Source: Candidatus Zhuqueibacterota bacterium (GTDB lineage Bacteria; SM23-31). Taken from it: DNA of 8,531 nt. The position numbers and the translations under genes were made by a program. The notes beneath the pieces were generated by a model that saw only the letters and a list, made by a program, of their open reading frames with translations, was not told where the DNA came from and searched no databases. Shown here one piece after another: positions 7,354 through 8,531 of the stretch. Position 1 is the stretch's first letter; each line of letters begins with the position of its first letter. The stretch lies in contig JADFON010000054.1 of NCBI GenBank assembly GCA_022562855.1, forward strand, positions 1-8,531, written 5' to 3'.

Positions 7354-7429
7354 TCCTCGGTAGCTCAATTGGTAGAGCGGGTGGCTGTTAACCACTAGGT
7401 CGTAGGTTCGAGTCCTACCCGAGGAGCCA
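7354..7429 (+). tRNA. tRNA-Asn (anticodon GTT)
   Basis: A complete 76-base cloverleaf. The acceptor stem TCCTCGG (7354-7360) pairs with CCGAGGA (7419-7425), with discriminator G and encoded CCA (7427-7429). The D stem is GCTC/GAGC with an AATTGGTA loop, and the anticodon stem is GGTGG/CCACT around CTGTTAA, with anticodon GTT at 7387-7389. The variable loop is AGGTC, and the T arm is GTAGG/CCTAC around TTCGAGT. The gene is intact. Its 3' half is the usual target of tyrosine-recombinase integration, which fits the integrase 200 bases downstream. Confidence 0.98.
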
Positions 7430-7630: not shown

Positions 7631-8394
7631 ATGGTTAGAATAAAACCAGTCCGCGTAATGAAGCGCGGTCATTATTTTCAATTATACTTTTATAACCACC
7701 TTCAGAAACGGAGACGTATTTCAGCCGGGAATAATTACCTTGTAGCTCAAAAGATGGCTGTGAGGTTCACTGACTGGCTTATTGATGGAAAAGATCCTGA
7801 GAAAGAATACCGCAATTTAAAAGTTAAAGATGCTTCATTGCCGATGACTTTACGGGAATCTTACTCGATCTTTATGAAGAGACATGGTAATTTCAAGAGT
7901 AAATCGATGCAGATCAGTTATGATAAGAGTTTCAGGATTATTTGCAGTAAAAGTAATTTAGCAGATATAAGCCTTGGGAGATTATACCTAGCCTTCTTTC
8001 AAATTATATGCATAAAAGATTAGAAGAAGATAATGTTAAACCTGCTACTGTAAATCGTGAAGCTGAATTTTTGAAAAGCCTTTTCACCAAAGCGGTTGAC
8101 TGGGGTTTTTTACATACTAACCAACTTAGAGGAATGAAACTCTTTAAAGAAACGAACAAGAGAAATGTAAAGTTAACACTTGAACAGGTCAAAGCTCTAG
8201 TAGATATTTTACCTGAGACCATTTCAGACATTGTTGAGTGTGCAATTTATACTGGATTTAGAAAAGAAAACCTCCTCAGTTTAAGAATCGAGAATATTGA
8301 ATTTGATGATAGTGGTACTGGTAAAGTAGTTTGCGTCAAAACTGGAACTTTGACTGGTCATAATGATTTTGTGGAATTTACAGTAATAAGCGGA
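7631..8394 (+). pseudogene. Tyrosine-recombinase integrase, frameshifted and lacking its catalytic C-terminus
   Basis: The frame starts at the ATG 7631, five bases after AAAGGAGG (7618-7625). An upstream extension in frame to 7490 has no support. The N-terminal arm-binding and SAM-like core-binding domains run through LRESYSIFMKRHG and KSMQISYDKSF, but this frame ends at 8021-8023. Family-like sequence resumes in the -1 frame from about 7978 (GEIIPSLLSNYMHKRLEEDN, then KPATVNREAEFLKSLF). Restoring one G to the GGG run at 7976-7978 joins the parts. The catalytic domain begins with LTLEQVKALVDIL and has the first catalytic Arg in YTGFRKENLLSLR (Arg codon 8260-8262). The HxxR box and tyrosine nucleophile never appear, because the frame enters a Calx-beta-like repeat near 8380-8400. 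As read, it cannot be an active recombinase. The position next to tRNA-Asn suggests an integrated element. A read or assembly error is the main alternative for each defect. Confidence 0.8.
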
Positions 8395-8531
8395 ACAATT
8401 ACAGCTGTTAATGATGATATCGCAGAGGGAAACCACAAGAGCGTTCTTAAACATACGGCTAAAAGTAAAGACGACAATTATGGTGGTATCAGTATCAATA
8501 ATGTATCTGTAAGCATTACAGATGACGATAC
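8395..8531 (+). pseudogene. Calx-beta-like repeat fragment of a large surface protein, in frame with the integrase (partial)
   Basis: From about 8395 the integrase frame reads TITAVNDDIAEGNHKSVLKH, later DDNYGGISINNVSVSITDDD, and runs off the right edge. The AVNDDIAEGNH start, the DxNY middle and the SVSITDDD end are the characteristic second half of a Calx-beta-type extracellular repeat as found in large adhesins. The first half of the repeat is missing; integrase sequence stands in its place. No signal peptide, start codon or ribosome binding site of its own is visible. It is either the remains of an adhesin gene joined to the integrase or a misjoined contig end. Confidence 0.6.

Follow-up and report, generated by a model that had tools for sequence, protein, structure and literature searches.

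The integrase treated here lies at the end of the window, by which we mean the whole 8531-bp stretch of DNA that was analysed. Its closest relatives are tyrosine recombinases, or phage-type integrases (PF00589, phrog_1), encoded on contigs C106 and C150 of genome G004, in a Candidatus Latescibacterota MAG and in a Gemmatimonadales MAG. They share 48–53% identity with the window copy from the core-binding domain through the start of the catalytic domain. All four are complete through the HDLRH and Tyr boxes and are unfused, whereas the window copy loses homology after about position 8346. A tRNA gene as neighbour is common to the window integrase and the four relatives (Ala, Met, Thr and Pro in the relatives, Asn in the window). 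The relatives read toward their tRNA (the 3' end of Ala, Thr and Pro, the 5' end of Met); the window integrase, in contrast, lies 3' of tRNA-Asn and is directed away from it.

The sequence that follows the integrase resembles the Calx-beta-like repeats of large surface proteins, found for instance in Nostoc pTCL26-01_C and in large ORFs of G394, G572 and other genomes, with up to 62% identity over 45 residues. Common to both are the motif AVNDDxAEGNH, the segment SxDxNYxGIxI and the closing ITDDD. Unlike the surface proteins, however, the window holds only half a unit, in which the preceding strand LTFTxxNWxxPQTV is unrecognisable, and it carries neither a signal peptide nor an adjacent repeat. 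As judged from the assembled sequence alone, the locus is also like the chimeric contig ends of draft assemblies, in that an unrelated sequence about one read long is placed terminally in a fragmented bin.

Genomic context

The window is one contig (C60) from end to end, with its physical end at 8531. The draft genome to which it belongs consists of 491 contigs totalling 2.51 Mb and is an estimated 79.6% complete; comparisons within the phylum refer to five other genomes of the same phylum. Ahead of the integrase, the contig carries the following genes:

Minus strand, QueG (epoxyqueuosine reductase), truncated at the contig start
Minus strand, proline dehydrogenase
Minus strand, metallo-beta-lactamase-fold hydrolase
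Minus strand, O-methyltransferase
Minus strand, AP endonuclease
Plus strand, Cys/Met-metabolism PLP enzyme
Plus strand, alkaline phosphatase
7354..7429, plus strand, tRNA-Asn (GTT), predicted by ARAGORN

The integrase gene starts 200 bp downstream of tRNA-Asn, and the integrase followed by the adhesin-like piece ends the contig. Since the four close integrase relatives also adjoin tRNA genes, tRNA-Asn is likely to have been the attachment site of the element that delivered the integrase. The far end of an island would be marked by another copy of the tRNA-Asn 3' end, and the assembly has none. The sister genome G001 has a homologue of the alkaline phosphatase, with no tRNA within its retrieved flanks.

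A frame-broken integrase

The end of the contig is divided as follows, residues being numbered in the 8008–8529 frame:

7631..7984, plus strand, N-terminal part of a tyrosine recombinase in frame A (ORF 7631–8023 including the stop)
7979..8007, plus strand, frame break, 23 nt in place of the 24 (8 codons) expected from the model of the relatives
7993..8346, plus strand, end of the core-binding domain and start of the catalytic domain in frame B, reaching the first Arg region YTGFRKENLLSLRIENIEF, with the His/Arg/Tyr part missing
8347..8394, plus strand, stretch holding the breakpoint, residues 114–129 TLTGHNDFVEFTVISG, scoring above shuffles for neither family
8395..8529, plus strand, second half of a Calx-beta-like adhesin repeat (TITAVNDDIAEGNH...SVSITDDD), profile positions 30–74 of 74

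The sequence-only reading had the catalytic domain beginning normally and took the integrase to be intact up to the junction. The latter does not hold, as a frame break at about 7979–8007, some 350 bp before the junction, had been overlooked. Positions 7631–7978 are 44% identical to residues 1–117 of a G004 integrase (same class), and 7993–8340 are 51% identical to residues 123–239 of that same protein, so that the integrase matches stop at 7978 and restart at 7993 in a different frame. A model built from the four closest relatives matched residues 1–118 of frame A with 129.6 bits, and its positions 133 and 142 fall on either side of nucleotides 7985–8007. The two parts thus lie in different frames, which places the break upstream of the region that had been described. 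Frame A stops while the catalytic part lies in the other frame, and no single open frame leads from a start codon to the catalytic domain. The repeat is read in a frame that becomes open only past a stop near 7957 and whose first ATG (8008) falls within the conserved core of the integrase; given the upstream break, no open frame therefore connects the start codon of the integrase itself with the repeat.

The core-binding domain and catalytic motif I (the Arg in TGxR) are present, YTGFRKENLLSLR being aligned in the four relatives with 132 bits. Neither the HxxR box nor the catalytic Tyr was found: the model matches end at residue 101–113, and the remainder, up to the contig end, gives no integrase signal. 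The underlying locus is probably an ordinary remnant, a tyrosine-recombinase gene with a broken frame that lies where an integrated element, otherwise unassembled, borders on tRNA-Asn. Compared with phages at the DNA level, the integrase region gave a single weak match of 37 nt.

The end of the integrase homology

With regard to the junction itself, the earlier claim that an integrase frame runs into a Calx-beta-like repeat in the same frame was confirmed: 8008–8529 is open throughout and changes family once. The integrase can be followed to about 8340–8349, as judged by the four-protein model of the closest relatives, which reaches residue 113 (nt 8346), a 25-protein integrase model, which ends at residue 101 (nt 8310) with its envelope reaching 116 (nt 8355), and the PHROG phrog_1 match, which ends at residue 110. 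The breakpoint, which had been proposed at about 8340–8400, lies in the stretch 8347–8394, which matches neither family; the repeat is recognised from 8395. For these residues (114–129), 76–82% of shuffles scored equally well against the integrase and 15–18% against the adhesin, and they lack any recognisable form of the repeat's conserved NWxxPQTV segment. The adhesin model does stretch across residues 114–129 if given a three-residue insertion, so that integrase and adhesin may be joined directly at about 8346. The join itself showed no copied or inverted sequence from nearby; a template-switch copy of nearby sequence was considered and rejected, the longest match being 13 nt, which is within chance.

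The adhesin-like repeat

A ten-unit profile from which the window had been excluded recognised residues 130–174 (8395–8529) with 60.8 bits (E 2.9e-16), and a 62-unit model gave 60.3 bits, compared to a maximum of 9.6 for shuffles of the same residues (n=3000). Single-sequence and profile searches matched the piece to repeats that other bacteria carry in large ORFs, many at 45–62% identity, and there were further matches to plasmid-encoded proteins annotated as Calx-beta. The name Calx-beta is nevertheless loose: relatives of the piece reach 15–20.2 bits where the Pfam gathering cut-off is 27, and the piece itself has no match to Pfam Calx-beta (PF03160), so Calx-beta-like is the proper label.

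The sequence-only reading also had the His/Arg/Tyr end of the integrase and the first half of the repeat both missing, and this agrees with where the integrase models end and with the match to profile positions 30–74 only. It had proposed profile searches of the two halves separately, and these identified an integrase (phrog_1 and the relatives' models) and an adhesin repeat. It had further named a normal integrase C-terminal domain at 8395–8531 as the result that would overturn it; this was not the outcome, for the integrase models gain nothing from residues 130–174, with shuffles reaching as high a score in 31% and 85% of cases. A forced global alignment does thread the stretch along an integrase as far as the HDLR region, identities being scattered, as would be expected if 8395–8529 were a divergent but normal C-terminus with a chance likeness to adhesins. 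In view of the shuffles, which the integrase models do not surpass, against an adhesin profile at 60 bits, such a reading is scarcely credible, and a C-terminus misread as adhesin is ruled out by the profile and shuffle tests together with the matches to large-ORF repeats.

The window contains no full repeat unit, tandem copies or secretion signal, and as the contig ends here, copies beyond it are possible. Other copies of the repeat were absent from the genome itself (single sequence, E up to 10; profile, E up to 1) and the repeat was absent from the five other genomes of the phylum; in another phylum, 40 of the 386 sampled genomes carry it, in large ORFs. A search of the phylum with Pfam Calx-beta also gave no matches, but neither did its control, so the negative for the phylum rests on the other searches. 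The tail has no relatives among plasmids at the DNA level, and as protein it has no match among phages and viral contigs.

Origin of the join

The junction is genuinely present in the assembled sequence, but most likely as an assembly artefact or as mutational debris and not as a working fusion. Between these two origins we prefer the artefact, namely a chimera made in assembly or library preparation at a thin contig end, and infer with a probability of roughly 0.58 that the join arose outside the cell. The last 137–185 bases would then be a piece of an unrelated gene for a Calx-beta-like adhesin, whose donor was probably a different organism in the sample; the attachment may have come about through a chimeric read or read pair, or through an erroneous extension as coverage gave out. 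In favour of this, the junction lies 137–185 nt from the contig end, about one short read, and about 4% of random points on the contig would be equally close to an end. A chimera is also favoured because the repeat is absent elsewhere in its own genome and phylum and yet present in another phylum, because the genome has no contig carrying the missing C-terminal half of the integrase, because the four integrase relatives are intact and unfused, and because viral contigs do not contain the exact junction. The sequence-only reading had proposed a search for the same junction in other genomes; it was found nowhere else, and a literature search for such fusions returned nothing. Base composition argues the other way. 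GC is about 34% in 8008–8345 and 35.5% in 8346–8531, against 44% in the rest of the contig, and GC3 is 24.8 and 26.2, respectively, against about 50; low GC is thus unbroken across the join, as if one AT-rich island held both halves. Moreover, further rearrangement would not be odd in a locus that is already decaying, as the frame break indicates, and a contig entering a real repeat array would likewise end there. No shared word that could explain a graph-based misjoin was found at the join, as judged without the sequences of the parent genes.

These same points bear on a real scar, which we consider the less probable origin, although a serious one. Here, a deletion or illegitimate recombination in a decaying AT-rich island at tRNA-Asn would have joined the middle of the integrase to the middle of an adhesin gene lying further inside the island; the matching frame would be accidental (one in three) and the product a non-functional pseudogene remnant. 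The one-base frame break in the integrase, the low GC and GC3 equal in both halves and unlike the neighbouring genes, and the position beside a tRNA gene, a usual site of island turnover, are all consistent with this, and as the assembly is only about 80% complete, missing pieces could be unbinned. On the other hand, a scar is difficult to reconcile with the lack of any such adhesin sequence elsewhere in the genome or phylum, of a second tRNA-Asn 3'-end copy in the assembly and of the same junction anywhere else, and with a junction at most about one read length from the contig end. That integrase decay and adhesin fusion together reflect a join in the living genome, at the edge of an AT-rich tRNA-linked island carrying a Calx-beta-like adhesin, appears improbable; if true, adhesin cargo would be undergoing rearrangement against the island's own recombinase. 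Of the three explanations offered by the sequence-only reading, a chimera consequently fits best in view of the terminal, read-sized piece, and a scar is possible given the decay and the shared low GC. A reassorting adhesin locus finds no support, as there is no other repeat copy in the genome or the five phylum genomes, and the contig end, which had been called repeat-rich, is not shown to be so, there being no other copy in the genome.

The shared reading frame

The frame is continuous across the junction, as would be expected of a functional fused gene or of a programmed reassortment in which the recombinase swaps adhesin repeats. This continuity is, however, not remarkable. For two fragments of coding sequence that share a strand, the chance of an in-frame join is one in three, and the adhesin piece, being itself coding, has no stops. 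A random stretch of the tail's composition would be open in about 0.5% of cases, which supports real coding sequence in the tail and not selection for a fusion. Set against a functional gene are the lack of a start of its own outside the integrase, the true N-terminus lying in another frame, the missing catalytic His/Arg/Tyr half, the lack of other repeat copies to exchange with and of a secretion-signal-like sequence ahead of the repeat, and relatives that are unfused; we therefore give a functional gene or programmed exchange hardly any weight. With the frame break, the missing catalytic half and no secretion signal, neither a chimera nor a scar would yield a working fusion protein, which is very unlikely to exist; the earlier view was that such a fusion makes no obvious functional sense. 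As a caution, where domains appear fused in frame within the final 200 bases of a draft contig, this should not be taken for a new protein architecture.

Other recombinases

The missing C-terminal half of the integrase was on no other contig of the genome. The recombinases on contigs C301 and C284 were considered as candidates and rejected as different genes, that on C301 repeating a part that the window already has. Positions 1–540 of C301 encode a tyrosine recombinase truncated at the contig start, near a FolD-like gene. In G003 (same class), a decayed integrase with two internal TAA codons (contig C48, 7005–7861) follows a tRNA-Met near the end of this 8500-bp contig, an arrangement like that of the window.
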